Below, piece after piece: positions 24,300 to 37,704 of a DNA stretch of 42,584 bases. The notes under the pieces were generated by a model. It ran no database searches and was not told where the DNA came from. It saw nothing but the letters and a program-made list of their open reading frames with translations. Source of the DNA: Cellulomonas fimi (GTDB taxonomy: Bacteria > Actinomycetota > Actinomycetes > Actinomycetales > Cellulomonadaceae). The stretch covers positions 1 to 42,584 of the forward strand of contig NZ_JABCJJ010000022.1 in NCBI RefSeq assembly GCF_012952065.1, written 5' to 3'. How positions within the stretch are numbered: the stretch's first letter is position 1; the number at the start of each line of letters is the position of its first letter. The translations under genes were made by a program, and so were the position numbers.

Positions 24300-25481
24300 A
24301 TGCTCCGCTCGCTCTTCTCCGGCATCAGCGGCCTCCGCGCCCACCAGACCATGCTCGACGTGACCGGCAACAACATCGCCAACGTCAACACGACCGGCTT
24401 CAAGTCGTCCCAGACGCAGTTCCAGGACACGCTCTCGCAGGTCCTCACGAACGCAGGCGGCGCGCAGGAGGGCGTCGGCGGCACGAACCCCGCCCAGGTC
24501 GGTCTCGGCGTGCGCGTCGCGGGCATCACGACGAACTTCCAGCAGGGCGCCGCGCAGCTCACCAACCGCAGCACCGACATGATGATCAACGGCGACGGGT
24601 TCTTCACCGTCCGCAGCGGCAACGAGCAGCTCTACACGCGGGCGGGCTCGTTCAACTTCGACACGCTCGGGCAGCTCGTCACGCCCGACGGCGCCCTCGT
24701 CCAGGGCTGGGCCGCGGCGGGGGACGGGTCGATCGACACGAACGCGCCGCTCGTCGACCTGCAGCTGCCGATCACCACGCTGATGGGCGCGCGGGCGACG
24801 GCGGCCGTCGGGTTCCAGGGCAACGTCCCCGCCGACGCTGCTGACGGGACGATCCTGAACCGCACGATCGAGGTGTTCGACGACCTGGGCAACGCCCGCA
24901 CGCTCTCGCTCCAGCTGACCAGGTCGGCGACGGGCTGGTTGGTCGCCGGCGGCGACGGCACGGCCGCCGACGGTCCCTACGCGATGACGTTCGACGCAAC
25001 GACCGGGGCACTCACGTCGCCCGCCTCGCTCACGATCGGGGCGGTCGCGGTCGACCTGTCGACGATGACCGGCTTCGCGGGCCTCGAGACGGCCAAGGCC
25101 GCGTCGCAGGACGGGCGCGAGGCGGGCAACCTGCAGTCCTTCTCGCTCAACGCGGACGGCACGCTCATGGGCTCGTTCAGCAACGGGCTCAAGCAGGCGA
25201 TCGGCCAGATCGCGCTCGCGACGTTCGCCAACTCGACCGGGCTCGAGAAGTCGGGCAACTCGCTCTACCGGACCACGGTCAACTCGGGTGCGGCGCAGGT
25301 CGGCACGGCGGGGACGGGCGGCCGCGGCGGGCTGTCGGGCGGCGCGCTCGAGATGTCGAACGTCGACCTGTCGTCCGAGTTCACGAACCTGATCATCGCC
25401 CAGCGCGGGTTCCAGGCGAACAGCCGCGTGATCACGACGTCCGACGAGCTGCTCCAGGAGCTGGTCAACCTCAAGCGCTGA
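24300..25481 (+). CDS. flgE: Flagellar hook protein FlgE
   Basis: A 393-residue hook subunit. The N-terminus LRSLFSGISGLRAHQTMLDV and NNIANVNTTGFKSSQTQFQ carry the axial signature. The SGNEQLYTRAGSFNFDTLGQL stretch and the C-terminal SNVDLSSEFTNLIIAQRGFQANSRVI are diagnostic of FlgE. GAAGGGA lies 8 bases before the ATG. It is 25 bases after flgD and is the last gene of the operon. The usual next gene, flbD, is about 12 kb away because a cytochrome c maturation block lies between. Confidence 0.95.
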   Translation: MLRSLFSGISGLRAHQTMLDVTGNNIANVNTTGFKSSQTQFQDTLSQVLTNAGGAQEGVGGTNPAQVGLGVRVAGITTNFQQGAAQLTNRSTDMMINGDGFFTVRSGNEQLYTRAGSFNFDTLGQLVTPDGALVQGWAAAGDGSIDTNAPLVDLQLPITTLMGARATAAVGFQGNVPADAADGTILNRTIEVFDDLGNARTLSLQLTRSATGWLVAGGDGTAADGPYAMTFDATTGALTSPASLTIGAVAVDLSTMTGFAGLETAKAASQDGREAGNLQSFSLNADGTLMGSFSNGLKQAIGQIALATFANSTGLEKSGNSLYRTTVNSGAAQVGTAGTGGRGGLSGGALEMSNVDLSSEFTNLIIAQRGFQANSRVITTSDELLQELVNLKR

Positions 25482-25588
25482 TGCCGGGCACGGGGCGGTG
25501 GTCCGCGCCACAGGCCACGGATGCCAGGCCCGTCGCACCCGGGCGGTAGTGTGCCGGGACGGCACTCATCGGTCGGAGGATCGCAGTC

Positions 25589-26332
25589 TTGGAGCTCTAC
25601 GCGCTGATGTCCCTGGCGCTCGTCGCCGGGGTGATCTCGTTCACGTCGCCGTGCTGCCTGCCGATGCTGCCGGGCTACGTGTCCTACGTCTCCGGGCTGC
25701 GCCAGCCGGTCGCGGCGGCCGGCGGAACGGTTGCCGTCCAGGAGCGCACGCGGGTGATGACCGGCTCGGTGCTGTTCGTGGTCGGGTTCACGCTCGTCTT
25801 CACCGTGCTCGGGATCACGGCGTCGGCCCTGGGGTTGCTGCTGGTGCAGAACCGGCAGGTCATCAACGTCGTCGGAGGCTCGTTCGTCGTGCTGATGGGC
25901 CTGGTGATGGTGGGCGTCGTCCGGGTGCCGCTCCTGCAGCGGCGCTTCGCGATCGACACCGCACGGTTCAGCCGTGGCCCGGCCGGTGCGCTGCCGCTGG
26001 GCGCTGCGTTCGCCTTCGCGTGGACACCGTGCGTCGGCCCGGTGCTCACGGCGATCCTCGCGACCGCCGCCGGCTCGGGGACGCTAGGACGCGGCATGGC
26101 GCTCCTCGTCGCCTACAGCCTCGGCCTCGGCATCCCGTTCCTGCTGCTGGCGGCCGGGATGATCCGGGGCAAGCGGCGGCCGGAGTGGCTCGCGCGCAAC
26201 ACCCGCCGCATCGAGCTGGCCGGCGGGGTGCTGCTCGTCGTGACCGGCCTGGCGATGGCCACTGGAAGCTGGAACCAGCTCATGAGCTGGTTCCTGGCCT
26301 CGTACGCACGCATCGGCTGGCCGCCCATCTGA
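25589..26332 (+). CDS. ccdA: CcdA-type thiol:disulfide transmembrane transporter
   Basis: A 247-residue membrane protein with six hydrophobic segments. It passes reducing equivalents from cytoplasmic thioredoxin to extracytoplasmic thiol partners, including the apocytochrome c reduction pathway. Redox cysteines are in FTSPCCLPMLPGY (Cys22, Cys23) and FAWTPCVGP (Cys148); the usual proline next to each pair is present. TTG at 25589 was chosen since GGAGG lies 9 bases upstream; ATG 25607 is an alternative. It stands alone on the plus strand, convergent with ccmG, with a perfect hairpin between. It is the first gene of the non-flagellar block. Confidence 0.88.
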   Translation: MELYALMSLALVAGVISFTSPCCLPMLPGYVSYVSGLRQPVAAAGGTVAVQERTRVMTGSVLFVVGFTLVFTVLGITASALGLLLVQNRQVINVVGGSFVVLMGLVMVGVVRVPLLQRRFAIDTARFSRGPAGALPLGAAFAFAWTPCVGPVLTAILATAAGSGTLGRGMALLVAYSLGLGIPFLLLAAGMIRGKRRPEWLARNTRRIELAGGVLLVVTGLAMATGSWNQLMSWFLASYARIGWPPI

Positions 26333-26350
26333 CCTCGACCCCGGCGCTCG

Positions 26351-26374
26351 CCGCCGGAGGCCGCCCTCCGGCGG
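26351..26374. terminator. Bidirectional terminator between ccdA and ccmG
   Basis: CCGCCGGAGG (26351-26360) pairs perfectly with CCTCCGGCGG (26365-26374) around a 4-base loop, in the 45-base gap between two convergent stop codons. Confidence 0.8.
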
Positions 26375-26377
26375 GCG

Positions 26378-27121
26378 TCAGCCGCCAGGCTCCCTCTGCA
26401 CCGGACCGTTGACGACCTCGCCCGGCGACCTGCCGGCGAGCACCTGGTCGAGCGTGCTGGACAGCAGCGGAAAGTTCGAGGCACCCATGATCTTGGCCAC
26501 GATGGTGCCCTCCCGGTCGATCACGAAGGTCTCCGGGACCCCGTAGACGCCGAAGTCGACGGCACCCCGGGACCCCGAGTCGGTGACGTACTCGTAGCTC
26601 TCGCCACGCCCGAGCTCGTCGAGGAAAGCCGTCGCGGTGGACTGCCGATCCTGGTAGTTCACGCCGACGAACGTGACGCCGGCGTCGGCGTAGGCATCGG
26701 AAGCGGCGACCAGCTCCGGATGCTCGGCGCGGCACGGGACGCACCAGGACGCCCAGAAGTTGACGACCACGACCCGGCCTCGCAGGTCCGCCAGCTTCAG
26801 AGCTCCCTCCCTCTCCAGGTACGGCCACTCGATGTCGGGCGCCGGCGTGCCGATCAGGGGCGAGCGCACGAGCGTCGGATCTGTGCCGAGCCGTGCCCCG
26901 AGCACCGCGCCCAGGCCCACCACCCCGGCGAGGACGAGCACCGCGAGCCACCTGAACATGCCCGCCCGCGACCGCGGGCGTCGGTCGGCGGTGACGAGGG
27001 CCGGGACGGCCGGCTCAGCGGAGGCGCCCGGCTGCTGCGTCGAGCGATCCTGCCCCAGCGACCGCGCACGCTCATCCGGCGGCGGGCCGACCTCGGCGTC
27101 GGCCGTCTTGTGCCCGCTCAT
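26378..27121 (-). CDS. ccmG: CcmG/DsbE-type thioredoxin-like protein
   Basis: A 247-residue membrane-anchored thiol oxidoreductase. A disordered N-terminus (1-52) precedes a transmembrane anchor (FRWLAVLVLAGVVGLGAVLG, about 56-75) and a thioredoxin fold with the active site WASWCVPCRAEHPEL (Cys127, Cys130). The cis-proline segment YGVPETFVIDREG near 190-203 and the start GTPAPDIEWPYL match CcmG. It is expected to reduce apocytochrome c or CcmH cysteines outside the membrane, fed by CcdA, whose gene is next to it. It is the last gene of the minus-strand ccm operon, and its start overlaps ccmI by 4 bases. Confidence 0.9.
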   Translation of the reverse strand: MSGHKTADAEVGPPPDERARSLGQDRSTQQPGASAEPAVPALVTADRRPRSRAGMFRWLAVLVLAGVVGLGAVLGARLGTDPTLVRSPLIGTPAPDIEWPYLEREGALKLADLRGRVVVVNFWASWCVPCRAEHPELVAASDAYADAGVTFVGVNYQDRQSTATAFLDELGRGESYEYVTDSGSRGAVDFGVYGVPETFVIDREGTIVAKIMGASNFPLLSSTLDQVLAGRSPGEVVNGPVQREPGG

Positions 27122-27960
27122 CCGCCACCTCCGGCCGCCAGGCGCGCCTGGACCTCCTGCTCCAGCGCGGCCATCTGGTCCCGCACCTCCGGCTCGGCCG
27201 GCAGCTCCTGCATCCGCCGCACGGCCTCCAGCGCGCCGCCGGGGTCGTCCTGCCCGTAGAGCCGGACGTTGGCCTGCACCCACCACGCCAGGGACAGCTC
27301 GGGGTCGCTCCGGACCGCCTCGTCGGCGAAGCGTGCCGCCTGCCCGGCGTCGTCCAGCATGAGAAGGATCCAGCCCAGCGAGGCCAGCGCCTCCGCGTTC
27401 TCCGGCTGGCGGTCGAGCACCTGGCGGTAGTGCGGGACGGCCTTGTCGAACTCACCCTGGTCGCGGTAGCGCCCGGCCAGCGCCAGCCGCATGCCGATGA
27501 CGTCGGGGTTGGCCACGACGACGCGCTCCATCTCGGCGTCGCTGACCTTCGACAGGTCACGCCCCGGTGGTGCCGACGGAGACGGCCCGGGCTCCGGGTC
27601 GACCTGCATCACCTCGTTACCGCTGACGAAACCGCCGTCCGGTCGCTCCTGCAGAGCGGGAGGGAGGACGACGACGAGCGCCACGACGGCCGCGAGCGCT
27701 CCGGCGCCGTAGACCGCGGCACGCCACGTCACCCTGCGCGGTGGTTCGCCGTCGGCCGCGACGCCGTCGTCGTCGCCGTCCAGCACCGCGAGCGCCTCCG
27801 CCGCCGTGCGTTCGTAGCGCCGCCTCAGCGCCACGGCCGGGCCGGGCGGCACGTCCCCCGCGCTCACCTGCTGCTCGAGCTCGAGCAGGTCACGCAGCGC
27901 CTGGTCCCGCTGCTGCTCCATCCCGGCGCGGCTGGGGAGGCGTGGCCGCGGTGCCGTCAC
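27118..27960 (-). CDS. ccmI: CcmI-like protein with tetratricopeptide repeats
   Basis: A 280-residue protein. Residues 1-75 are a charged cytoplasmic helix (RDQALRDLLELEQQVSAG). A transmembrane helix follows (about 80-100) and then an extracytoplasmic TPR region (about 150-265): MRLALAGRYRDQGEFDKAVPHYRQ and NAEALASLGWILLMLDDAGQAARFAD. Such TPR proteins hold apocytochrome c during heme attachment by the CcmF-CcmH complex. GTG at 27960 overlaps the ccmH stop (GTGA) and was chosen for that reason. It has only one TM helix in place of the two usual in CcmI, so it resembles the CycH/NrfG half more than full CcmI. Confidence 0.8.
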   Translation of the reverse strand: MTAPRPRLPSRAGMEQQRDQALRDLLELEQQVSAGDVPPGPAVALRRRYERTAAEALAVLDGDDDGVAADGEPPRRVTWRAAVYGAGALAAVVALVVVLPPALQERPDGGFVSGNEVMQVDPEPGPSPSAPPGRDLSKVSDAEMERVVVANPDVIGMRLALAGRYRDQGEFDKAVPHYRQVLDRQPENAEALASLGWILLMLDDAGQAARFADEAVRSDPELSLAWWVQANVRLYGQDDPGGALEAVRRMQELPAEPEVRDQMAALEQEVQARLAAGGGG

Positions 27961-28430
27961 GGCTCCTCCTCCACGGTCGTGACCGACCGCAGCCGGTCGA
28001 GCTCGCGCCGGACGCGCTCGCGGTCCTCCTCCGGCAACGGCGGCACCTGCCGTCGGGGCAGGGTCGCCAGGACGCCGAGTGCGACCGCCGCAGCACCCGC
28101 CGGCAGCAGCCAGACGAGCAACGTCACGCCCTGCGCCGGCGGGTCGAGCACCACCCAGTCGCCGTAGCGGGCGCGGAAGTAGTCGAAGACCTCCTGGTCG
28201 CTGCGTCCGGCAGCGACCTGCTGGGCGACCTCGAGCCGCATGGCGGCAGCCGTCTCCGACGGGGAGTCCGCGATCGAGACGCTCTGGCACGTCGGGCAGC
28301 GCAGCAGCTGCTCCAGCGCGTAGGCGCGGTCCGCCGCAGGGCCCGGTCGGCCCAGCAGGCCCCAGGCCACGACCGCGAGCGACACCAGCAGCAGGAGGGG
28401 CAGGACGGCACGCCGGACCTGGCTACGCAC
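27957..28430 (-). CDS. ccmH: CcmH cytochrome c maturation thiol protein
   Basis: A 157-residue protein with an N-terminal membrane segment (LPLLLLVSLAVVAWGLLG, about 11-28), then the redox motif LLRCPTCQSVSIADSPS (Cys45, Cys48). The usual motif is LRCxxCQNxSIADS, here with Pro-Thr between the cysteines and Ser for Asn after CQ. A three-helix domain follows (VAAGRSDQEVFDYFRARYGD) and a C-terminal membrane segment with a basic tail. CcmH reduces apocytochrome c before heme ligation with CcmF. GTG 28430 was chosen; it overlaps the ccmF stop by 8 bases. Confidence 0.88.
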   Translation of the reverse strand: MRSQVRRAVLPLLLLVSLAVVAWGLLGRPGPAADRAYALEQLLRCPTCQSVSIADSPSETAAAMRLEVAQQVAAGRSDQEVFDYFRARYGDWVVLDPPAQGVTLLVWLLPAGAAAVALGVLATLPRRQVPPLPEEDRERVRRELDRLRSVTTVEEEP

Positions 28431-30408
28431 GTGGGGACACCTTCTCGACGGACCGGACGGACCCCGATCCCGGCGTGACGGCTGCCGGTCCTGTACGCCG
28501 CCCCACCAGAGCCCACACCCCGCCCACCGCGACCAGGGTGCCCGCTGCCCACATGAGCCACATGAACGGCTTCGTGGACACGTTGATCGCGATCGAGCCA
28601 GGCTCGAGCCGCGTGAGCGAGATGTACACGTCCTCCGAGGGCCTGGTCCACACCGCGGGCGTCGCGACCGCCTGCGGCTGGTTGCGGAAGGCCGTGAGGG
28701 CAGGCTCCATCGTCCGGACCACCTCACCGTCCCGGCTGACCTCCAGGCGGGCGGCTCGGCGCGTGCGGTCGGGCATCTCGCGCTCGACGTCCTGCACGTA
28801 GGTGACGGTGTAGCCGGCGACGGAGAGGCTGTCGCCGATCTCGAGGTCGGCGGAGTCGCGCTGGGCCAGCCCGCTCGACGTCGCGACGCTGACGGCGAAC
28901 AGCGCCACGCCGATGTGGGCGAGCTGTCCGCCCCAGTAGCCTCGGCGCCCCCGCGCGACGCGCCACACCCCGCGCAGCGAGCGCCCCGGCGCAGTGACGA
29001 GGAGCTCCCGCACGCTGGCCGCGGCGATGGTGGCGGCCAGGAGGACCGCGAGGACGACGGCCGCGTCGGTCACGCCCGCGACGACGAGGCCGACCGCGGA
29101 GAGGCTGCCCACCAGCAGCGGCCACGACACCTTCCGCCAGAGCACCCGCCCGCTCGCGCGGCGGTACGGCATGAACGGCCCGACGCCCATCGCGAGGAGC
29201 AGGGCGAAGGACAGCGGCACCGCCATCCGGTCGAAGAACGGACGGCCGACCGAGACCTGCTGCCCGGTCACCGCCTCGACGAGCACCGGGTAGAGGGTGC
29301 CGAGGAGCACCACGAACGCGTACAACGACAGCAGGACGTTGTTGACGAGGAACGCACCTTCCCTGCTGAGCAGGGACTCGGGCCGTCCGCCACCGACGAG
29401 GTCCGCCCCGCGCCAGGCGATGAGCCCGAACGAGACCACCGCCACGAGCAGGAAGAATCCCAGCAGCACCGGCCCGACCGCGGACTGGGTGAAGGCGTGG
29501 ATCGAGGCGATGACGGAGGAGCGGGTCAGGAACGTGCCGAGCAAGGTGAGCGAGAACGTCGACACCACCAGGACGAGGTTCCACAGCTGAAGCATGCCGC
29601 GCCTGAGCTGGACGACCGCGGAGTGGATGAACGCCGTCGCGACCAGCCAGGGGATGAGGGCCGCGTTCTCCACCGGGTCCCACGCCCAGTAGCCGCCCCA
29701 GCCCAGCACGTCGTACGACCACCACGCACCGAGCACGAGGCCGCCGGTGAGGCCGGTCCACGCGACGAGGTTGGCGCGGCGGGTGCGGCGCAGCCACTCC
29801 ACGCCGCCCTGCCGCAGCAGCAGCGCGGAGATGGCGAACGCGAACGGGACGGTGAAGCCCACGTACCCCAGGTAGAGCAGCGGCGGGTGGAACGCCACCA
29901 TGAGGTGGTTCTGCAGCAGCGGGTTCGCCCCTGGCCCGTCGAGCGGCGGGTCGGCCAGGATCTGGAACGGGTTGGTCACCGTGGTGACGAGCCCGAAGAA
30001 GAAGACGGACACCAGGGCCATGACGCCCAGAGCGCCCGTCCCGAGCCGATCGGCCGTGCTGGGGATGCCTCGCGCGACCGCGACGACGAAGCCGGCCAGT
30101 ACCAGCACCCAGAGCACGGAGCTGCCGTCGAGAGCCGACCAGGCCGCTGTCACCTTGAACAGCAGGGGGGTGGTGCGCGAGCCCGTCTCGGCGACGTAGG
30201 ACACCTCGAAGCTGTTCGTGAGCAGGGCCGCCACCAGGGCGCCCTGGGCGAGCAGGCCGCCCGCCAGGATGCACGCGGCAAGGACACGCAGACGTCCGAT
30301 CGGCACCGCGGCGGGACGTCGCTGGGCCCGCAGCGCCCACCACGCCAGCACGGCGGACCCGGCCAGCCCGAGCATGGCACCCGTCCAGCCGGCAGCAGCC
30401 CAGATCAC
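28423..30408 (-). CDS. ccmF: CcmF heme lyase subunit
   Basis: A 661-residue polytopic membrane protein, the heme lyase core of System I. It has the WWD-type heme-handling motif WGGYWAWDPVEN at residues 237-248, flanked by conserved histidines (FHPPLLYLGYVG near 173; FIHSAVVQL near 260). Fourteen or so hydrophobic segments are visible, and the C-terminal extracytoplasmic domain contains VAGYTVTYVQDVERE. Its length is typical (about 630-660). GTG 30408 overlaps the ccmE stop (GTGA). The presence of CcmE, CcmC and CcmH alongside sets this apart from the CcsA/ResB (System II) protein that most actinobacteria use. Confidence 0.93.
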   Translation of the reverse strand: MIWAAAGWTGAMLGLAGSAVLAWWALRAQRRPAAVPIGRLRVLAACILAGGLLAQGALVAALLTNSFEVSYVAETGSRTTPLLFKVTAAWSALDGSSVLWVLVLAGFVVAVARGIPSTADRLGTGALGVMALVSVFFFGLVTTVTNPFQILADPPLDGPGANPLLQNHLMVAFHPPLLYLGYVGFTVPFAFAISALLLRQGGVEWLRRTRRANLVAWTGLTGGLVLGAWWSYDVLGWGGYWAWDPVENAALIPWLVATAFIHSAVVQLRRGMLQLWNLVLVVSTFSLTLLGTFLTRSSVIASIHAFTQSAVGPVLLGFFLLVAVVSFGLIAWRGADLVGGGRPESLLSREGAFLVNNVLLSLYAFVVLLGTLYPVLVEAVTGQQVSVGRPFFDRMAVPLSFALLLAMGVGPFMPYRRASGRVLWRKVSWPLLVGSLSAVGLVVAGVTDAAVVLAVLLAATIAAASVRELLVTAPGRSLRGVWRVARGRRGYWGGQLAHIGVALFAVSVATSSGLAQRDSADLEIGDSLSVAGYTVTYVQDVEREMPDRTRRAARLEVSRDGEVVRTMEPALTAFRNQPQAVATPAVWTRPSEDVYISLTRLEPGSIAINVSTKPFMWLMWAAGTLVAVGGVWALVGRRTGPAAVTPGSGSVRSVEKVSPRA

Positions 30409-30818
30409 GACGTCGTCCCGCCTGCCTCCGTCGCGGGGGCACGGTACTCCTCGTCGTGCTTGACGATCATGGTGTCGGAGACGAACACGTCCGCCCGCCA
30501 CCTCCCTTCGACGACTACCCCGATGCCCTCCTGGAAGAGCTGGTTGGGCGCACCGCTGTGCTCGACCTGCACGGTGCCCCCGTCGGACTCGCCCACCACG
30601 GTGAACCGCACGCCGTCGGCGGTGGGGACGACGCTGCCGGCCTCGACGAGACCACCGAGACGGAAGCGCTCGCCGTTCGAGGCGGCCGCCCGCCCCGAGA
30701 CCGCCTCGTCGGGCGTCAGGTAGTAGACGAGGTTGTCGTTGAGGTTGCCGAACATCAGCGTCCCGGCCAGCACGGCGGCCAGCCCGACCCCCGGCACGAC
30801 GAACGCGCGCGCTCTCAT
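30405..30818 (-). CDS. ccmE: CcmE heme chaperone
   Basis: A 137-residue membrane-anchored periplasmic-type chaperone. An N-terminal anchor (AFVVPGVGLAAVLAGTLMFG) is followed by an OB-fold barrel (FRLGGLVEAGSV, DGVRFTVVGESDGGTVQVEHSG). The heme-binding motif is KHDEEYRAP, so the covalent heme ligand is predicted to be His121 with Tyr125 conserved. This is the classical His type, not the CxxxY variant found in some archaea and bacteria. It accepts heme from CcmABCD and passes it to CcmF. It overlaps ccmF and the ccmD stop. Confidence 0.92.
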   Translation of the reverse strand: MRARAFVVPGVGLAAVLAGTLMFGNLNDNLVYYLTPDEAVSGRAAASNGERFRLGGLVEAGSVVPTADGVRFTVVGESDGGTVQVEHSGAPNQLFQEGIGVVVEGRWRADVFVSDTMIVKHDEEYRAPATEAGGTTS

Positions 30819-30937
30819 CGCAGCTCCTCCAGCCGGCGCCGCGCCCGTGCCGTGCGGGCACGCAGGACGGTCAGGTAGACAGCCATGGCGCCGTACGCCA
30901 CGGAGAAGCCCAGCAGGACCCAGCCCCAGTCAGTCAC
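30815..30937 (-). CDS. ccmD: CcmD small membrane protein
   Basis: A 40-residue protein starting GTG, with an N-terminal helix WGWVLLGFSVAYGAMAVYL and a strongly basic tail (RARTARARRRLEELR). That is the classical CcmD pattern: a hydrophobic helix followed by an Arg-rich end. It is needed for release of holo-CcmE from the CcmABC complex. It sits exactly where ccmD is expected, one base after the ccmC stop and overlapping the ccmE start by 4 bases (TGATGA-type junction). Confidence 0.85.
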   Translation of the reverse strand: MTDWGWVLLGFSVAYGAMAVYLTVLRARTARARRRLEELR

Positions 30938-30938
30938 G

Positions 30939-31691
30939 TCATCCCTCTCTCTGGTCCATCTGCCTGGTCACAGCCGCGACCTGCGCGGCGGGCGCCGTGA
31001 CGGCGGACCCGGCCACCGGCCGTCCCGGTGCCTCCGTGGCGGCGGCGAGCTCGGCCTCGTCGCGCGCCAGACGCATCCGCATCCGCAGGAACACCGTGAA
31101 GACGGCGCTGAACGCCACCACGTTCACCACGAGAGCAGCGAGCATGACGTGGTCGATGGTGGGGTCGCCTGGACGCAGGACGGTCGGTGGCTGGTGCAGG
31201 CTGCGCCACCACAGCACCGAGAAGTGCACGACCGGGACCTGGACGAAGCCGACGACCCCGAAGAGGGCGCTGTTGCGGGCGCGCCGGGTCGCGTCCACCG
31301 TGGCACGGCGCAACGCGAGGTACCCCAGGTAGACGAAGAGCAGCACCGCGGTGGTCACGAGCCGTGGGTCCCAGGTCCACCACACGCCCCAGACCGGCTT
31401 GCCCCAGATGGCGCCGAGGGCGATCGCCAGTCCCGTGAAGAAGACGCCGACCTCCGCGCTCGAGGCCGCGAGGCGGTCCCACCGCTCCTGGCGCGACCGC
31501 AGCCAGGCGACGCTGCCGACCAGGGTCAGGCCGAACGACAGGTACGCGAGCCACGCAGCAGGCACGTGCACGTACATGAGCCGCTGCAGCTCCCCCTGGA
31601 GCCGATCCGGCGGAGCCGACACGGCGGCCGCCAGCCCGGCGAGCACGAGGGCGCCCGTGGCCGCCCCCAGATAGCGGTCGATCCGGGTCAT
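30939..31691 (-). CDS. ccmC: CcmC heme-handling membrane protein
   Basis: A 250-residue protein with six transmembrane segments. The heme-binding tryptophan-rich motif WGKPVWGVWWTWDPRL spans residues 96-111, and the flanking conserved histidines appear as MYVHVPAAW (His42) and VVHFSVLWWRSLHQPP. CcmC transfers heme to CcmE. The last 50 residues (LARDEAELAAATEAPGRPV onward) are an Ala-rich extension beyond the usual C-terminus. ATG 31691 overlaps the ccmB stop by 4 bases. Confidence 0.93.
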   Translation of the reverse strand: MTRIDRYLGAATGALVLAGLAAAVSAPPDRLQGELQRLMYVHVPAAWLAYLSFGLTLVGSVAWLRSRQERWDRLAASSAEVGVFFTGLAIALGAIWGKPVWGVWWTWDPRLVTTAVLLFVYLGYLALRRATVDATRRARNSALFGVVGFVQVPVVHFSVLWWRSLHQPPTVLRPGDPTIDHVMLAALVVNVVAFSAVFTVFLRMRMRLARDEAELAAATEAPGRPVAGSAVTAPAAQVAAVTRQMDQREG

Positions 31692-32365
31692 CCTGCCTCC
31701 TCCAGTGCACGCGCTGTCAGCACCGTGGCCAACAGCGCGAGCAAACCCGCCAGTCCCATGAGGACCAGCCATGGCCACGGTGCCCGAGCATACTTGGCCG
31801 CCTCGATGACCTGGGTGGCGCCCAGCAGGAGCGGCACTGCGAGCGGCACGACGAGCAGCGGACCCAGCACGGCGCGGCCGGGGACGCCGGCGGACACGGC
31901 TCCCGCCAGCGCGCCGAGCGCCGCCAGCCCGACCGCGACCAGCGGCAGCACGAGGAGAAGCGCCGGCCACCCGGGGATCCTGGGGTCGTACAGCGCGACC
32001 GCAACCGGTGCGAGGAGCAGCTGGAAGGCCAGCAGCAGCACGGCGTCCGCGACGACCCGGGCCAGAGCCCGAGCGACGGGGTCGACCCCGCACTGCGCGA
32101 GCAGCGCTCGAGGTCCGGGCCCGTCCTCCGCGCTGTGCCGCACCGTCAGCATGACCCCGAAGAGCAGGACGACGAGCCAGTAGAAGCCCGGTCCCACCTG
32201 GCGCAGGAGCGGGACGTCCGTCCCGACGGCCATCGGGAGCAGGAGCAGCGCGACCGCACCGAACGGCGCGACGACGAGCAGGGCCTCACCGGTGCGCCGC
32301 TCGAGCGCCAGCTGCAGACCCACGAGCGCCCGGACCTGCTCTCCTGCGCCGACTGCCCTGCTCAC
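31688..32365 (-). CDS. ccmB: CcmB ABC-transporter membrane subunit
   Basis: A 225-residue protein with about six hydrophobic segments (for example VAPFGAVALLLLPMAVG, GFYWLVVLLFGVML, VVADAVLLLAFQLLLAPVAVA). It pairs with CcmA and CcmC in the complex that releases holo-CcmE. The sequence after segment 2 (RHSAEDGPGPRALLAQCG) matches CcmB spacing. GTG 32365 overlaps the ccmA stop. Length and order are standard for System I. Confidence 0.9.
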   Translation of the reverse strand: MSRAVGAGEQVRALVGLQLALERRTGEALLVVAPFGAVALLLLPMAVGTDVPLLRQVGPGFYWLVVLLFGVMLTVRHSAEDGPGPRALLAQCGVDPVARALARVVADAVLLLAFQLLLAPVAVALYDPRIPGWPALLLVLPLVAVGLAALGALAGAVSAGVPGRAVLGPLLVVPLAVPLLLGATQVIEAAKYARAPWPWLVLMGLAGLLALLATVLTARALEEAG

Positions 32366-33084
32366 GGCACGCTCACGGAGGCAGGGACGACCGCGCCGTC
32401 GACGAGCTCGACCGCCCGGTCCACCATCGGTCGCAACCGGTCCCGCTCGTGCGAGACCAGCACGCAGGCACCCGACCGGGACCGCACCGCTTCGGTCAGG
32501 ACCTGGACCAGGTGCACGCTGTCGCGATCAAGACCTGCGTGGGCCTCGTCCAGGAGCAGCAGGTGAGGTTCGGTCAGCAAGGCCCGGGCGAGGTCCGCCC
32601 GGCGAAGCATGCCGTGGGAGCACTGGTCGGCCCTCCGGTGCGTCGCCGCCGCGAGCCCGACCGACTCCAGCGCGGCTGTCGCGTCGGTCTCGTCGCGACC
32701 GGTCAGCCGCGCGACCAGGCGGAGGTTCTCCCCGAGCTCGAGCTGCGGGTACAGCGCGGGCTGGTGCCCGATGAGGGTGACGGAGGTGCGGACGGCGGCG
32801 CGGGCCGCGCGCCCTGCGGCGCCGTCGGCGCTGATGTCGGCCCCCAGGACCCGGCACCGTCCCCCGGCCGGCGGGATGAGGCCCGCGAGCATCCGCAGCA
32901 GGGTGCTCTTGCCGGAGCCGTTCGGTCCGAGCAGCCCGACGACCTCGCCCGCCTCCAGCCGCAGGTCCAACCCTCGCAGCACCGGGGTGCCCGCGATGTC
33001 GACGCGGACGGACTCCACGACCGCCACGGGACCCTGCGCGGGTCTGGACGCACGCCCGGTGAGAGCATGCAGCGGCTCCGGCAT
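32362..33084 (-). CDS. ccmA: CcmA ABC-transporter ATPase
   Basis: A 240-residue ATP-binding subunit. Walker A is GPNGSGKST (residues 53-61). Walker B is LLLLDEAHAGLD with a following H-loop in CVLVSHERD. The signature motif is degenerate, CSHGMLRRADLARAL in place of LSxGQ, yet in the right place. The ATPase supports release of heme-loaded CcmE. It starts the ccm operon; the 202-base gap before it holds a palindrome at 33228-33242 and an AT-richer -10-like TACCAT near 33165. The first 20 residues are an extra leader compared with usual CcmA. Confidence 0.9.
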   Translation of the reverse strand: MPEPLHALTGRASRPAQGPVAVVESVRVDIAGTPVLRGLDLRLEAGEVVGLLGPNGSGKSTLLRMLAGLIPPAGGRCRVLGADISADGAAGRAARAAVRTSVTLIGHQPALYPQLELGENLRLVARLTGRDETDATAALESVGLAAATHRRADQCSHGMLRRADLARALLTEPHLLLLDEAHAGLDRDSVHLVQVLTEAVRSRSGACVLVSHERDRLRPMVDRAVELVDGAVVPASVSVP

Positions 33085-33227
33085 CGGCTTCCTCCGTCGG
33101 GTTCGACCCGAGGGCGGCCATCGCGACCACCTCCGCCGGACGAACGGGCATCAGGTTCTGCCTTGCATGGTAGGCCGGGTCCGCGACGACTCGATCCGGC
33201 CCGCGCGGTGTCGAGGCGACCGCAGGG

Positions 33228-33242
33228 GTCACCTGTGGTGAC
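33228..33242. promoter_or_regulatory. Operator-like palindrome upstream of ccmA
   Basis: GTCACC-TGT-GGTGAC, a perfect 6+6 palindrome, followed 3 bases later by TCACC. It lies in the gap between the multicopper oxidase stop and ccmA and could bind a regulator of the ccm operon. Confidence 0.4.
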
Positions 33243-33286
33243 AATCACCATGACCTCGCCGTGCGGCGTGCCCCGACGAGCTCGCG

Positions 33287-34885
33287 TCAGGCGAGGTACG
33301 ACAGCACGGTCATCATGCCCAGCTCACCGTGGTAGATGTTGTGGCAGTGGATCAGCCACTGGCCGGGGTTGTCGGCCTGGAGGTCCACCGAGAGGGTCTC
33401 CATCGGGAGCACGTTGACCGTGTCCTTGCGGATGCCACGCCCGCCACGGGCCGCGAGCGCGAAGGTGTGGCCGTGGACGTGCATGGGGTGGAACATCATC
33501 GACTCGTTGCGCAGGACGAGCCGGACGCGCTCGTCGCGTCGGATCTCCAGCGGCTCGTGGTCCCCGAAGGCCGCTCCGTTGATGAACCACTGCCGACCGC
33601 CGTCCACCATCTGCAGCGCCAGCTCGAGCTCCCGGTCGACCCCGCGCGGTTCCAGCGCGGCCGCCTCGGTGGCCCGCAGGTCCGCGTAGCTGAGCAGACG
33701 GCCCCCGAGCTCCGCGGGGCGCGCGACCGCGGACGGCGTCTCGCCGGAGGCGGTGCGGAGGACGGCGAAGCCGGGCGCGGCGTCCTTGCCCTCGGGGACG
33801 GCGACGACCGGGAACGCGCCGTCGCCCGCGGTGATCACCACGTCGTAGCGCTCACCCATGCCGATGATGAGCGTGTCGACCTCCACCGGCTCCACCGGGA
33901 AGCCGTCGGTGTGCGTCACGGTCAGGCGGTGGCCGCCGACCGCGAACCGGTACGCGGTGTCGCCACCGGCGTTGATGATCCGCAGGCGGAGCCGGCGCCC
34001 GGGTGCCGCGTCGATGACGAAGGGGTTCTCGGGGACCCGCCCGTTGACCAGGTGTGCGGGGTAGACGACGTCGCCGGTGTCGGCACCGAGGGGCTGGGCC
34101 GCGGACGGCATGCTGCCCTCCATGTCCATCCCGTCCATGCCCTCCATCCCGTCCATGCCCTCCATGCCTTCCATGGAGTCCATGCCAGCCATGGAGTCGT
34201 CGCCCATCACCATCCCCTCGCGGCGCATGCGCTCGAGGACGGCGTCGGGAGAGTCGCCCCACCCGTCGGTCCAGTCGTCCAGCACCAGGACGACCTCGTC
34301 GTCGTAGCGCCCGGGCTCCGCCGGGTCCTCGACGATCAGCGGCGCCTGCAGCCCCCGGTCGAGCTGCACCCCGACGTGCGGGTGGAACCAGTACGTTCCG
34401 GGGTCGGGGACCACGAACGCGTAGTCGAAGCTCGCGCCCGCGGCCACCGGGTCCTGGGTCAGGCCGGGCACGCCGTCCATGTCGTTGCGCAGCGCGAGAC
34501 CGTGCCAGTGCACGGTCGTCTCGGCGGGCAGGTCGTTGACGAGCCGGACCCGCAGCTCGTCCCCGGCCGTCACGCGGATCTCCTTGCCGGGGACGACGCC
34601 GTCGTACGCCCAGGTCTGCACCGCCCGCCCGGCGAGGTCCAGCGTCGTCGGGGCGGCGCGCAGCTCGCGGCGCACCACCGTGCCGGTGGCCCGCCGCGCC
34701 GCCTCGGTCTGGGCGACGGAGGCGGCACCTGGTCCGACGGGCGCCGCGCCGGCGAAGAGCCGGGTGCCGGCGAACGCGCCGCCGCCCACGACGACGAGCC
34801 CGGCGGCGCCGAACTGCAGGAATCGCCGCCGGCTCAGGTCCTTGCGGGCATCAGGCGTGGAACGCGGACCGGGCGTGGAAGGCAA
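33287..34885 (-). CDS. Tat-exported multicopper oxidase (CopA/laccase-like)
   Basis: A 532-residue cupredoxin oxidase, probably oxidising Cu(I) or another metal outside the cell. A twin-arginine signal SRRRFLQFGAAG lies at 18-29. All four copper motifs are present: HWHG (126-129), FHPHVG (167-172), HPMHVHGH (466-473) and HCHNIYHGELGM (513-524), with type-1 ligands Cys514 and Met524. Residues about 219-259 are Met-rich (13 methionines), like the copper-handling segment of CopA/PcoA. TTG 34885 was chosen because GGATGGAG precedes it by 7 bases and it gives a normal Tat signal; ATG 34993 would add 36 residues with no ribosome site. It is upstream of ccmA on the same strand. Confidence 0.9.
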   Translation of the reverse strand: MPSTPGPRSTPDARKDLSRRRFLQFGAAGLVVVGGGAFAGTRLFAGAAPVGPGAASVAQTEAARRATGTVVRRELRAAPTTLDLAGRAVQTWAYDGVVPGKEIRVTAGDELRVRLVNDLPAETTVHWHGLALRNDMDGVPGLTQDPVAAGASFDYAFVVPDPGTYWFHPHVGVQLDRGLQAPLIVEDPAEPGRYDDEVVLVLDDWTDGWGDSPDAVLERMRREGMVMGDDSMAGMDSMEGMEGMDGMEGMDGMDMEGSMPSAAQPLGADTGDVVYPAHLVNGRVPENPFVIDAAPGRRLRLRIINAGGDTAYRFAVGGHRLTVTHTDGFPVEPVEVDTLIIGMGERYDVVITAGDGAFPVVAVPEGKDAAPGFAVLRTASGETPSAVARPAELGGRLLSYADLRATEAAALEPRGVDRELELALQMVDGGRQWFINGAAFGDHEPLEIRRDERVRLVLRNESMMFHPMHVHGHTFALAARGGRGIRKDTVNVLPMETLSVDLQADNPGQWLIHCHNIYHGELGMMTVLSYLA

Positions 34886-35041
34886 GGGGGAGCTCCATCC
34901 GTCTCTCGGGATCGTGAAGGGTGCGCCACGGGGCGCCGGGACATCGTCACCGTGCGGCACGAAGGTTCTGCTTGGGGACGATGAAGATCTCATGAAGCCG
35001 CAGGCCCGAGCGGTCGGCGGCGTCCGGCCGACAGTGGTCGG

Positions 35042-36685
35042 TCACCCCAGCAGCAGCGGTCCCAGGGACGCGACGAGCGCGACGGCCGCTGCCACGAGGG
35101 AGACGACCCGTCCGTGCGCGGTGGCACGAGGGATGCTCCGTAGCGGGAACAGGACCTGTCGCCCGAGCACGTAGGCCGCCACCGTCGCGACCAGCACGAG
35201 ACCGCTGCCCACGCCGGGCGCCGTGAGGACGGCCAGCAGGGCGAGAGCCCCGAGGGCTGCGGAGAACCCGGACTCGAGCAGCTGCACCGGGATCCGTCGG
35301 ACCCCGACGCGTCTGTCGGAGGACCAGACGCCCCACCGCGACGACGTCGGCCGGCCCACGCAGCACCCGCCGAACAGGCAGCCGAGCCTGCCGACCGCCA
35401 TCGCGAGGAGCAAGCCGGGCGCCGTGACGTCGAGCGACGTGCCCAGGGGCAGGTCGAGGAGGAACGTGCCCGCCACGAGCGTCGCGACGGTGGTGATGAC
35501 GAAGCCCTGCACCGACAGGCCCTGCGTCACCGGACTGCGTCCTTCTCTGCGGTGCGTGAGCAGGTAGTAGAGCTTGGCACCCGCCAGCCCGAGAGCGCTC
35601 GCGATCACGGTGAGCAGGAACAGGCGCGGTCCGGCCAGGCCGACCTGGCGTGCCAGGATGCTCTGGAGCACGAGCGCGAGGACGAACCCCGTGCCGACCA
35701 GCGCGGGCCATGCGCCGAGGCGCACACCGGGCGCGAGGGCGCCGACGAAGGGCGAGAAGGCGGTGCGGCCCGAGGTCGCAGCCCGCGGCAGCAGAGGGTC
35801 GCGCACCTCCATCCACGGGCTGGGCGCGCCCGCGGGTGCAGGCCGCACCGGCGTGGCCACCACCTCCCACTGACCCGGCGCGACGTCGGGGATCCGGGTG
35901 GTGACGGCGATCCGTCCGGAGCCGGGCAGGACCTTCTCGAGCGTCGACGTCACGGCGAACTCCGTGCGGCCACCCGGTGTCGAGGAGGCGCCCTCGCCGT
36001 CGGCACCACTCTTCAGGCGACCGCGGAGATGCACGTTCAGGGTGTACGGCTCGCCGGCAGGCTCCGCGTCGAACCAGTACGTGACACCCAGGGACTGCTG
36101 GTCGGTGTTCTCGAGCGGGCTGCAGCTGAGCTCCGTGATCGCGACCGGGGAGGGCAGTGCGTGCCGCGCCAGCCTAGGCTGCGAGTCCCGCGGCTGCGTG
36201 GTGGCAGCGGGGGCCGCTTCCGCAGCGGCCGGGGTCGCCGACGGCGACGCGGGGAGGTCGGCAGCGGCGCGCGGTTCCGCTGCGCGTGGCCGAGCCGGTG
36301 ACGGCGTGGCGGCGGCGCGAGGCTGGGCGGGTGACGGCGTGGCGGCGGCGCGAGGCGTGGCGGGCGACGGCGTGGCGGCGGCGCGAGGCGTGGCGGGAGC
36401 GGCTGGACGTCCCTGTTGCCGCGCCTGAGGCGCCTTCTTGCCGCCGGGATCGGGCCGCCGTGCCGGGCGCGCGTCTCGGCGAGGGGTCCGCGTCTCGCCC
36501 GTGCGGAGGGGAGCCGGTCGGTGGGGTTGGCTCGGGGGCGGCGCAGCGGCTCGGAAGAAGGAGGCGCCGGCAGGCTTCTCGCTCGTCGCGCCGCTCGTCG
36601 TGCCGCTCGTCGTGCCGCTCTTCGCGTCGTGGTCGCCCGTCGGTGCAGCCTGCCGGTCCTTCGGCTTGTCGGATCCGGCGGACAT
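35042..36685 (-). CDS. Lgt-family membrane protein fused to a beta-sandwich and a disordered N-terminus
   Basis: A 547-residue protein in three parts. Residues 1-165 are disordered Ala/Pro-rich with 11-residue repeats. Residues about 175-285 form a predicted beta-sandwich domain (PVAITELSCSPLENTDQQSL onward). Residues about 310-545 are a polytopic domain resembling prolipoprotein diacylglyceryl transferase, with GRLGCLFGGCCVGRPTSSRW (432-451) at the place of the Lgt signature (GRxGNFxNxExxGxPT) and RIPVQLLES matching HPxQLYE. The key Asn is Cys, the Glu is Cys, and the essential His before it (HGG) is Gln (SVQG), so true Lgt activity is doubtful. ATG 36685 overlaps a 17-codon frame. Likely in one unit with the oxidase 156 bases downstream. 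Confidence 0.75.
   Translation of the reverse strand: MSAGSDKPKDRQAAPTGDHDAKSGTTSGTTSGATSEKPAGASFFRAAAPPPSQPHRPAPLRTGETRTPRRDARPARRPDPGGKKAPQARQQGRPAAPATPRAAATPSPATPRAAATPSPAQPRAAATPSPARPRAAEPRAAADLPASPSATPAAAEAAPAATTQPRDSQPRLARHALPSPVAITELSCSPLENTDQQSLGVTYWFDAEPAGEPYTLNVHLRGRLKSGADGEGASSTPGGRTEFAVTSTLEKVLPGSGRIAVTTRIPDVAPGQWEVVATPVRPAPAGAPSPWMEVRDPLLPRAATSGRTAFSPFVGALAPGVRLGAWPALVGTGFVLALVLQSILARQVGLAGPRLFLLTVIASALGLAGAKLYYLLTHRREGRSPVTQGLSVQGFVITTVATLVAGTFLLDLPLGTSLDVTAPGLLLAMAVGRLGCLFGGCCVGRPTSSRWGVWSSDRRVGVRRIPVQLLESGFSAALGALALLAVLTAPGVGSGLVLVATVAAYVLGRQVLFPLRSIPRATAHGRVVSLVAAAVALVASLGPLLLG
36300..36398. repeat. 33-base coding tandem repeats in the Lgt-like gene
   Basis: Three 33-base units starting at 36300, 36333 and 36366 on the plus strand encode, on the minus strand, about three copies of A(T/Q)PRAAATPSP. 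They lie in the disordered N-terminal part. Confidence 0.85.
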
Positions 36686-36738
36686 CAGGACTCGCGGTGG
36701 ACGCCACGGTCCACGGTGGCCAGGTTGGTGCTGCTCAT
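36685..36738 (-). CDS. Possible 17-residue leader peptide before the Lgt-like gene
   Basis: A short minus-strand frame (ATG at 36738, reading MSSTNLATVDRGVHRES) ends at a TGA that overlaps the ATG of the Lgt-like gene (TGATG). Such coupling fits a leader peptide, and the Lgt-like gene otherwise lacks a clear ribosome site. A GTGGAC/GTCCAC inverted repeat sits within it. The coding evidence is weak. Confidence 0.25.
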   Translation of the reverse strand: MSSTNLATVDRGVHRES

Positions 36739-37325
36739 CGGCACAGTGTCGCCGCCCTTCCGCGCAGTCTGCAGTTCCGAGCATGGAGAAGTGATGAAGA
36801 TGCCATGCGTGCCAGGACGACGATACCGGTCCGGCGCGCAGGCCCCAGGACCACCCCGTGATCTCGCCGCGCACCTGCTCCCGCCTGGCCCGGGCGACGA
36901 GCACGCCGCGGACCCGACGGCCGCCGAGCCGCGACCGCGCCTGGTCCAGGTGATCCACACGTGGGCAGCGGTCGCCGTCGACCAGGACGACGAGCCCGAT
37001 CGCAGCGCGAGCGCCGCGAGCGAGACGGTCCGGGCAGCAGGCGATCGTCTCCTCGTGGCTGCGCCATCGACGCGCCCATCGGGGCGGGCCGCCTCGACGA
37101 GGCGGTGGAGCTCGCGCTCGAGCTGATCGAGCACCTCGGGCGCGTGTGGAACGACTACTTCCTCGGCGCGATCCGGCGCGCGGCACTGGCGATCGAGGCG
37201 CCGTCTCGGAGTGTGACGTTTCGCCGGGGAGTCCCCGCGGATGGGCGGGTCGACGTCGCACTCGCCGGCAGGGGTGCCGGGCTCCGGTCGTGAGTGTGCC
37301 GTCTCGCCGGGACCCGTCGGAACCC
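36739..37325. other. Gene-poor junction between the ccm block and flbD
   Basis: No convincing intact gene is seen. On the plus strand, frame 1 at about 37080-37205 reads RLDEAVELALELIEHLGRVW and continues NDYFLGAIRRAALAIEA, which has normal amino-acid composition without a start, so it may be a gene remnant. It begins at a perfect palindrome CCGCCTCG-A-CGAGGCGG (37089-37105). A 20-base near-repeat, GAGTGTG(A/C)CGT(T/C)TCGCCGGG, occurs at 37209-37228 and 37292-37311. Upstream of 37060 the sequence looks like promoter or spacer DNA for the divergent Lgt-like gene. Confidence 0.4.
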
Positions 37326-37354
37326 CTCACACCCGCCGACTCCCCGCCGATCAA
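37326..37354 (+). promoter_or_regulatory. Predicted FliA-type promoter of flbD-motA-motB-fliL
   Basis: CTCA (37326-37329), 16 bases, GCCGATCAA (37346-37354). With the upstream CC it shares CCTCACACCCGCCG-N8-CCGATnAACCC with the flgB promoter. About 53 bases separate it from the flbD ATG. Confidence 0.65.
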
Positions 37355-37407
37355 CCCTGCACAGGGCTCATGGATGGGCCCGCTACTGCTCGGGACCCAC
37401 GGACGGG

Positions 37408-37704
37408 ATGGACATCGTGATCATCGTGACGCGCCTCAACGGCCCGCAGTTCGCGATCAACCCTGACCTGCTCCAGCGCATCGACAGCGCCCCGGACACG
37501 ATCCTCACGCTCGTCGACGGCACCAAGTACATCGTCCAGGAGTCGATGGCCGCGGTCATCGACCTCGTCACGACGTACCGCGCGACCCTCGTCGCTCGCA
37601 GCCAGGACGTGCAGCAGAGCTTCGGCCTGCGCGCTGCGCCGGACGAGCCCGACGACGACGCGCCGCTCGCCACCACCGTCCAGCTCTACCCGCGGAGGGG
37701 CTGA
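37408..37704 (+). CDS. flbD: FlbD family flagellar protein
   Basis: A 98-residue cytoplasmic protein. The signature IIVTRLNGPQFAINPDLLQRID is followed by LTLVDGTKYIVQESMAAVIDLV, the complete small FlbD (FlbD/DUF) domain found between flgE and motA in many Gram-positive clusters. Its function is unknown. The C-terminus adds about 30 acidic and variable residues. ATG 37408 is used; GTG 37417 (giving MIIVTRLNG) is an equally good choice from family alignment. The stop overlaps the motA ATG by one base (TGATG). Confidence 0.85.
   Translation: MDIVIIVTRLNGPQFAINPDLLQRIDSAPDTILTLVDGTKYIVQESMAAVIDLVTTYRATLVARSQDVQQSFGLRAAPDEPDDDAPLATTVQLYPRRG

Follow-up and report, generated by a model that had tools for sequence, protein, structure and literature searches.

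Why does an actinomycete whose family usually matures c-type cytochromes with System II (the ResB-CcsA synthase, with ResA and CcdA) carry a complete set of System I genes between two flagellar genes, and which cytochrome does that set serve? We addressed these questions in Cellulomonas fimi. The window, i.e., the whole stretch of DNA that was analysed, is 42,584 nucleotides long and comprises the entire contig G000:C15 (NZ_JABCJJ010000022.1) of a 3.55-Mb draft assembly in 83 contigs (GCF_012952065.1), which is listed as 99.97% complete with a contamination of 0; genomes, contigs, and loci are cited by our working numbers (G, C, and L). A preliminary description, made from the letters of the window alone, had proposed that a cytochrome c maturation block splits a flagellar operon there and that it arrived by horizontal transfer as one unit, perhaps as a metal-linked redox system. 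We consider it highly probable that a System I module was gained horizontally, that it matures the cytochrome QcrC encoded elsewhere in the genome, and that the resident resB-ccsA genes were deleted, such that System II was swapped for System I.

A complete System I gene set between flgE and flbD

Twelve genes occupy the interval from the flgE stop at 25481 to the flbD start at 37408. ccdA lies on the plus strand, and the other 11 lie on the minus strand in the order (by rising coordinate) ccmG, ccmI, ccmH, ccmF, ccmE, ccmD, ccmC, ccmB, ccmA, a multicopper oxidase gene, and an Lgt-like gene. The features are as follows; the Pfam matches quoted are all above the Pfam cut-offs.

24300 to 25481, plus strand: flgE, left flank (Pfam Flg_bbr_C, FlgE D1, and rod domains)
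25589 to 26332, plus strand: ccdA, TTG start, thiol-reductant carrier of the Ccm block (DsbD_TM, 59.7 bits; adjoins ccm in 7 of 7 distinct other loci)
26378 to 27121, minus strand: ccmG, DsbE-type thioredoxin with WCVPC (Redoxin, 81 bits)
27118 to 27921, minus strand: ccmI, TPR protein, alternative start at 27960 (TPR domains; named by position and counterparts)
27957 to 28430, minus strand: ccmH, with LRCPTCQ (CcmH, 105 bits)
28423 to 30411, minus strand: ccmF, heme lyase with the WWD-type motif GGYWAWD (CcmF_C, 224 bits; Cytochrom_C_asm, 105 bits)
30405 to 30818, minus strand: ccmE, heme chaperone with VKHDEEY (CcmE, 83.6 bits)
30815 to 30937, minus strand: ccmD, 40 amino acids (no hidden Markov model match; named by position and tblastn counterparts)
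30939 to 31691, minus strand: ccmC, with GVWWTWD (Cytochrom_C_asm, 113.9 bits)
31688 to 32365, minus strand: ccmB (CcmB, 59.6 bits)
32362 to 33084, minus strand: ccmA, ABC ATPase (ABC_tran, 107 bits; TIGR01189 ccmA, 124.9 bits, just below cut-off)
33287 to 34993, minus strand: multicopper oxidase gene, twin-arginine leader SRRRFLQF, Met-rich insert (three Cu-oxidase domains)
35042 to 36685, minus strand: gene for an Lgt-like membrane protein with an Ala/Pro-rich N terminus and the Cys-rich GRLGCLFGGCCVG (LGT, 75 bits)
37361 to 37382, plus strand: flbD leader motif, right edge of the insert (conserved in five genus members)
37408 to 37704, plus strand: flbD, right flank (FlbD, 75.9 bits)

The content that the preliminary description had assigned to the block was borne out by Pfam, with CcmD and CcmI identified partly by position. 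The 40-residue CcmD has no Pfam match; tblastn found counterparts in six related loci (L215, L216, L217 and its duplicate L021, L100, and L020) and none in L022. The defining parts of System I are present: CcmAB and CcmC by Pfam, CcmD by position and counterparts only, CcmE with its histidine motif, CcmF with its WWD-type motif, and CcmH with a CXXC pair. The ccmE translation contains VKHDEEY, which we take to be the heme-binding motif of a His-type CcmE, as had been claimed, and GVWWTWD in CcmC, GGYWAWD in CcmF, LRCPTCQ in CcmH, and WCVPC in CcmG presumably have their usual meanings. The block has all the parts of the System I of Proteobacteria and Acidimicrobiia, in the order ccmABCDEFHIG and with the same motifs, but it differs in lying within an actinomycete order ruled by System II, in its linked ccdA, and in having apparently one client.

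QcrC is the likely client

No c-type cytochrome is encoded inside the block, as the preliminary description had noted; it had also left the block without a client, and here a likely candidate emerged from a genome-wide scan. PF13442 matches one gene of the genome, that of QcrC in contig C45, whose two heme sites (CATCH and CAMCH) are intact, which aligns throughout with eight other QcrC sequences, and which is adjoined by genes for cytochrome b, a Rieske protein, and COX3. A block wholly without a candidate client is ruled out by this gene.

The CxxCH pattern occurs at 60 places in the DNA of the assembly (59 places were read, plus the last one, inside the window itself), and only the two of QcrC look c-type. 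Ten further CxxCH frames were flagged as coding-like by base composition. Pfam assigned nine of these frames and one more to DUF4012, a flavin oxidoreductase, UvrA/ABC, a nitrate reductase beta subunit, two radical SAM proteins, an alcohol dehydrogenase, a class II tRNA synthetase, DnaJ, and a DsbH-like protein; two frames were named by eye as PriA-like and L31-like. A hydrophobic segment lies upstream in 5 of the 59 frames, namely, the two of QcrC, the flavin protein, and two of antisense-like composition.

The System II synthase is missing from its native locus

ResB (PF05140) gave neither a match nor a candidate in any contig of the C. fimi genome. This protein is present in 35 of 39 genomes compared, including all 24 other family members among them, and in 208 of 221 family genomes (191 of the 196 of high quality). 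Among the 39, C. fimi is the sole genome with PF13442 but without ResB; the three other ResB-less genomes are also without PF13442.

The native System II locus was located in contig C12 through the MenA and phosphatase (gpm) genes of congeners, and it lies well inside a contig of 311 kb. The order gpm-resA-ccdA is the same as in all four congeners, in each of which resB and ccsA (about 2.8 kb) lie between ccdA and the PLDc_N/DUF4229 genes. In C. fimi, PLDc_N, DUF4229, and menA follow 46 bp after ccdA. PLDc_N is likewise placed in G001 to G003 (none was picked in G004), DUF4229 is so placed in all four congeners, and menA comes next in G001, G003, and G004, with G002 differing beyond DUF4229. 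No credible remnant of resB-ccsA was seen at the native locus among the matches listed by sensitive tblastn; weak ResB-labelled matches in ccdA arise because the query frames of the congeners extend into ccdA. ResA (with CPPC) and CcdA are kept. Measured against System II, the usual machine of the family, C. fimi thus retains ResA and CcdA and is without resB-ccsA, a loss that lay outside the window and had escaped the preliminary description. The bacterium seems to be without the two-protein heme-attaching synthase and to rely on the acquired, many-gene System I.

Several points weigh against such a swap. NCBIfam matches agree in direction with our assignments, yet all fall below the library cut-offs (10 block genes were queried, CcmC not validly). 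QcrC is likely the only c-type cytochrome with a CxxCH site, judged by sequence in a search that covered CxxCH spacing only. ccsA is missing at the native locus, and no genome-wide CcsA profile search was made; the CcmF search of the genome is no test for CcsA, since G001, G002, and G004 carry CcsA and were likewise unmatched. Twelve other family genomes, most of them fragmented, are without ResB and without CcmF at an E value of 1e-20, including the high-quality genomes G039, G053, G184, and G232 (two of these four in 520 and 660 contigs); thus, absence of ResB alone has other causes. Finally, the draft assembly is in 83 contigs, and both systems coexist in 9 of the 10 carriers of CcmF that were examined in the order besides C. 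fimi, as would be expected if ResB and CcsA were present here too and had been missed through an assembly gap or collapse. We regard this last explanation as very improbable because the native locus is contiguous within its contig, with only resB-ccsA gone, and because no contig holds a ResB match or candidate.

In the scenario that we favour, gain of System I followed by loss of System II, a ccm module with its own CcdA would have arrived by horizontal transfer and lodged between flgE and flbD. System I would then have taken over the maturation of QcrC, a di-heme component of the bcc-aa3 chain and the one likely c-type cytochrome of the cell, after which resB and ccsA would have been deleted and resA and ccdA left behind. 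From what is known of System I, CcmAB and CcmCD would load heme onto the histidine of CcmE, and CcmF, with CcmH and CcmI, would join this heme to both CxxCH sites of QcrC, while cysteines would be kept reduced by CcmG, CcmH, and CcdA, possibly helped by the ResA and CcdA left at the native locus. We infer from sequence both the in vivo maturation of QcrC by System I and the order of gain before loss.

Probable horizontal origin of the block

At an E value of 1e-20, CcmF was found in 7 of the 221 family genomes: that of C. fimi, G042 (84% identity), and five with copies at 37 to 40% that form a distant clade in the CcmF tree. The earlier view that System I is unusual in the group was right. None of the four congeners has a comparable CcmF at this threshold, G003 giving only two weak partial matches at a looser one; the block is therefore not something that all close relatives carry at this site. 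Among 396 genomes of the order (E value of 1e-30), five have CcmF: C. fimi, G025 (84%), G490 (62%), G352 (60%), and G235 (62%). G025 belongs to another family of the order and G042 to another genus, and the genomic contexts of ccm in both differ from that in C. fimi.

The CcmF tree was built from 90 rows by a quick method with SH-aLRT support and a midpoint root. Two of 92 frames, G235 among them, were under 450 amino acids and were omitted; Tersicoccus phoenicis and G352 are one sequence, and L003 and L012 are one gene of G021. The C. fimi copy joins those of G042 and G025; G490, Tersicoccus, and two Pseudonocardia come next and complete a group of 8 rows (support 100), which stands beside 23 mostly Acidimicrobiia rows (support 100 for both groups together). 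Horizontal gain of the block, as first proposed, is thus well supported by the rarity of CcmF in the family, its absence from congeners, the 84% copy in another family, and the tree. A patchy distribution and a tree at odds with kinship were found; mobility genes and flanking repeats were not, among the genes scanned and the repeats listed.

We rejected ancient inheritance of the ccm block on the patchy distribution of CcmF and its tree. A block ancestral in the family and lost almost everywhere might account for the 84% copies in two genera (G000 and G042), but it is highly improbable, given CcmF in only 7 of 221 family genomes and 5 of the 396 from the order, a copy just as close in another family (G025), the differing genomic settings in G042 and G025, and the retention of System II by nearly the whole family.

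Relatives with both systems (G042, G025, G490, T. phoenicis, and the two Pseudonocardia) carry the same ccm-ccdA module, with CcmF 60 to 84% identical, and differ from C. fimi in that they also carry ResB; CcsA was found alongside it in G042, G490, G352, and G025. ResB is present in 9 of the 11 CcmF carriers examined in the order, the exceptions being C. fimi and G235, and in both Pseudonocardia carriers. The ccm loci that we name are the best 80 of 589 confirmed, and ResB was checked for 25 of those 80; of 22 other CcmF genomes reached through them (mostly Acidimicrobiia and many of them metagenome-assembled genomes), 21 are without ResB and one is below the cut-off. The order reads as a series of stages that begins with System II alone, passes through the presence of both, and ends with System I alone.

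The compared genes of the module (ccdA and ccmA, B, C, E, F, G, H, and I) are under purifying selection, with ratios of nonsynonymous to synonymous substitution rates (dN/dS) of about 0.12 to 0.35 against G042 and G025. Composition was of little help in judging origin. Block genes have a GC content of 71 to 75% and a GC content at third codon positions (GC3) of 0.87 to 0.95, below the 0.96 to 0.98 of flgE, flbD, motA, fliL, and two other window genes (motB, with a GC3 of 0.885 and a doubtful N-terminal extension, was left out), and the mean codon-frequency difference is 0.057 between ccm and flagellar genes versus 0.048 between flagellar halves.

Two side observations concern other CcmF carriers. 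A divergent CcmF type (37 to 40%) is found in genomes that keep ResB, at L102 (G021:C25, 86000 to 105999) and in G191, G192, G205, and G215; the ccmF of G021 adjoins genes that look, by eye, like those of oxidase subunits. G235 (L218 and L205) has a CcmF of about 62% identity, the match to which contains a stop codon, and is without ResB. This genome, 92% complete in 450 contigs, may represent a second swap or may be incomplete or an artefact.

The insertion site

FlbD is present in 24 of the 39 genomes, and C. fimi has a single flbD. We compared the flgE-flbD interval in 20 of the 23 others (G035, G037, and G038 being left out) and found that the gap does not exceed about 1 kb in 17 (an upper bound in G031 and G033, where the flgE match ended early; the G025 gap was taken from an open reading frame). 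The interruption is therefore more than a matter of annotation. The three large gaps are in G002 (6.7 kb), G003 (14.4 kb), and G023 (5.0 kb). Two of the five genus members have an uninterrupted gap, of 280 bp in G001 and 190 bp in G004, and the other three, C. fimi included, hold cargo that differs among them: EAL-GAF and coiled-coil proteins in G002 (L118, 7410 to 14086) and a cation-efflux transporter, an ArsR-type regulator, a molybdopterin oxidoreductase, and PAP2 and AlkZ-like proteins in G003 (G003:C24, 7267 to 21670, in L120 and L141). In G023, of another genus, the gap is also filled with unrelated cargo (L125, 11003 to 16012). With three of five genus members and G023 so occupied, the gap looks like a recurrent landing site.

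All five genus members share a motif that lies about 50 bp ahead of flbD, suggesting that flbD starts its own transcription unit. The insert seems to sit at a border of transcription units and not within one operon; insertion inside a same-strand operon was rejected on the minus-strand orientation of 11 of the 12 genes and by the kept leader motif. Hence, the claimed break in flagellar gene order stands, but the splitting of an operon was an overstatement. We found no mobility genes among the genes scanned, no tRNA in the window, and no repeats marking both edges among those listed (20 of 33 and 25 of 33). The stretch of about 0.7 kb (36686 to 37360) that separates the Lgt-like gene from the flbD leader holds no recognisable gene and is possibly a remnant; a plus-strand frame there (36961 to 37290) has no Pfam match.

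The joins of the block are those of the assembly, but a misassembled or contaminant contig is scarcely credible: both flanks are flagellar and 71 to 82% identical to congeners, there is one flbD in the genome, contamination is listed as 0, and G002 and G003 have cargo of other kinds in this gap.

Unity of the module and its neighbours

The distinct other loci of the module number seven (six genomes of the tree clade and G235); they differ in length, so absences are soft. The proposed arrival as one unit is supported for ccdA with ccm, which adjoin in 7 of 7, less so for the Lgt-like gene, which is no more than 10 kb away from ccm in four of the seven (both Pseudonocardia, G042, and G490), and weakly for the multicopper oxidase, near ccm in 1 of 7 (Pseudonocardia 73-21). 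Among the best 80 of 589 loci, ccdA stands beside ccm in one further locus, L089, by a weak match (tblastn, 1e-6). An Lgt-like gene was not found near ccm in G025, in Tersicoccus, or in the remaining named loci; the G235 contig ends early.

The multicopper oxidase has laccase-type relatives in the PDB and the motifs HWHG, HPH, HPMHVHGH, and HCH. The Lgt-like protein shares the LGT domain with prolipoprotein diacylglyceryl transferase (Lgt), the match spanning nearly the entire profile, but has invariant Cys in GRLGCLFGGCCVG where the Lgt signature has Asn and Glu. It has no PDB match by sequence or profile. Activity in lipoprotein transfer is doubtful on these residues, and the protein perhaps performs metal or thiol chemistry instead.

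A scan of ccm neighbours, Tersicoccus and KRD291 being left out, showed two cation-efflux transporters, an ArsR-type regulator, CopD-CtaG, DUF305, a P-type ATPase, and LspA in G025 (L100/L101); LspA and what looks by eye like a P-type ATPase in G490; and DUF305 in Pseudonocardia 73-21. G042 argues against a general metal link, its ccm neighbours being NADH-dehydrogenase-like genes and an antiporter instead. G025 also carries two ResB genes besides its ccm module. No CxxCH open reading frame was among those picked in nine ccm locus pieces; thus, the module brings no obvious client. A metal-linked role of the block, as the preliminary description suggested, can be hypothesized.

It is very unlikely, in our estimation, that the block is not for QcrC, with System I or its parts serving metal or thiol homeostasis and QcrC being matured otherwise. 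The oxidase and Lgt-like neighbours, the genes for metal handling that lie close to ccm in G025, G490, and Pseudonocardia 73-21, and the lack of a client in the block would fit such a role, but every part of System I is there and is conserved, CcmF has its motif intact, QcrC is kept, and no other c-type synthase was found. A broader and tentative possibility is that ccdA with ccmABCDEFHIG forms a mobile, client-less island of Actinomycetes, beside metal-handling genes in several genomes, that provides the resident QcrC with a second machine, can then evict System II, and would have the benefit of replacing a metal- or heme-sensitive step. If true, this would amount to tolerance by target replacement, a sturdier step being installed in respiration. 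Neutral loss of System II once it had become redundant would be an equally possible reason for the swap.

Precedents and implications

The works cited here provide points of comparison for a swap from System II to System I. In mitochondria of Archaeplastida, System I was replaced by System III (PMC10879542), likewise an entire pathway with few clients; those switches differ in being eukaryotic, in involving another pair of systems, and in ending in a single enzyme, and neutral loss after redundancy is discussed for them in the same paper. In E. coli, CcsBA can replace eight Ccm proteins (PMC6299221), a precedent for the exchangeability of Systems I and II. Mycobacterium smegmatis is given as a user of System II (PMC13170271), and a review calls the evolution and bacterial distribution of Systems I and II unexplained (PMC9145763). 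We found no report of a replacement of System II by System I in Actinomycetes among the open-licence papers listed.

One order thus holds three stages, System II only, both systems, and System I only with the same client, and the System I-only stage is marked by clean deletion of the old synthase genes. With its apparent single client, C. fimi is a natural test bed for the benefits of System I versus System II. Collectively, these data suggest that gene transfer can exchange an entire pathway for assembling part of the respiratory chain.

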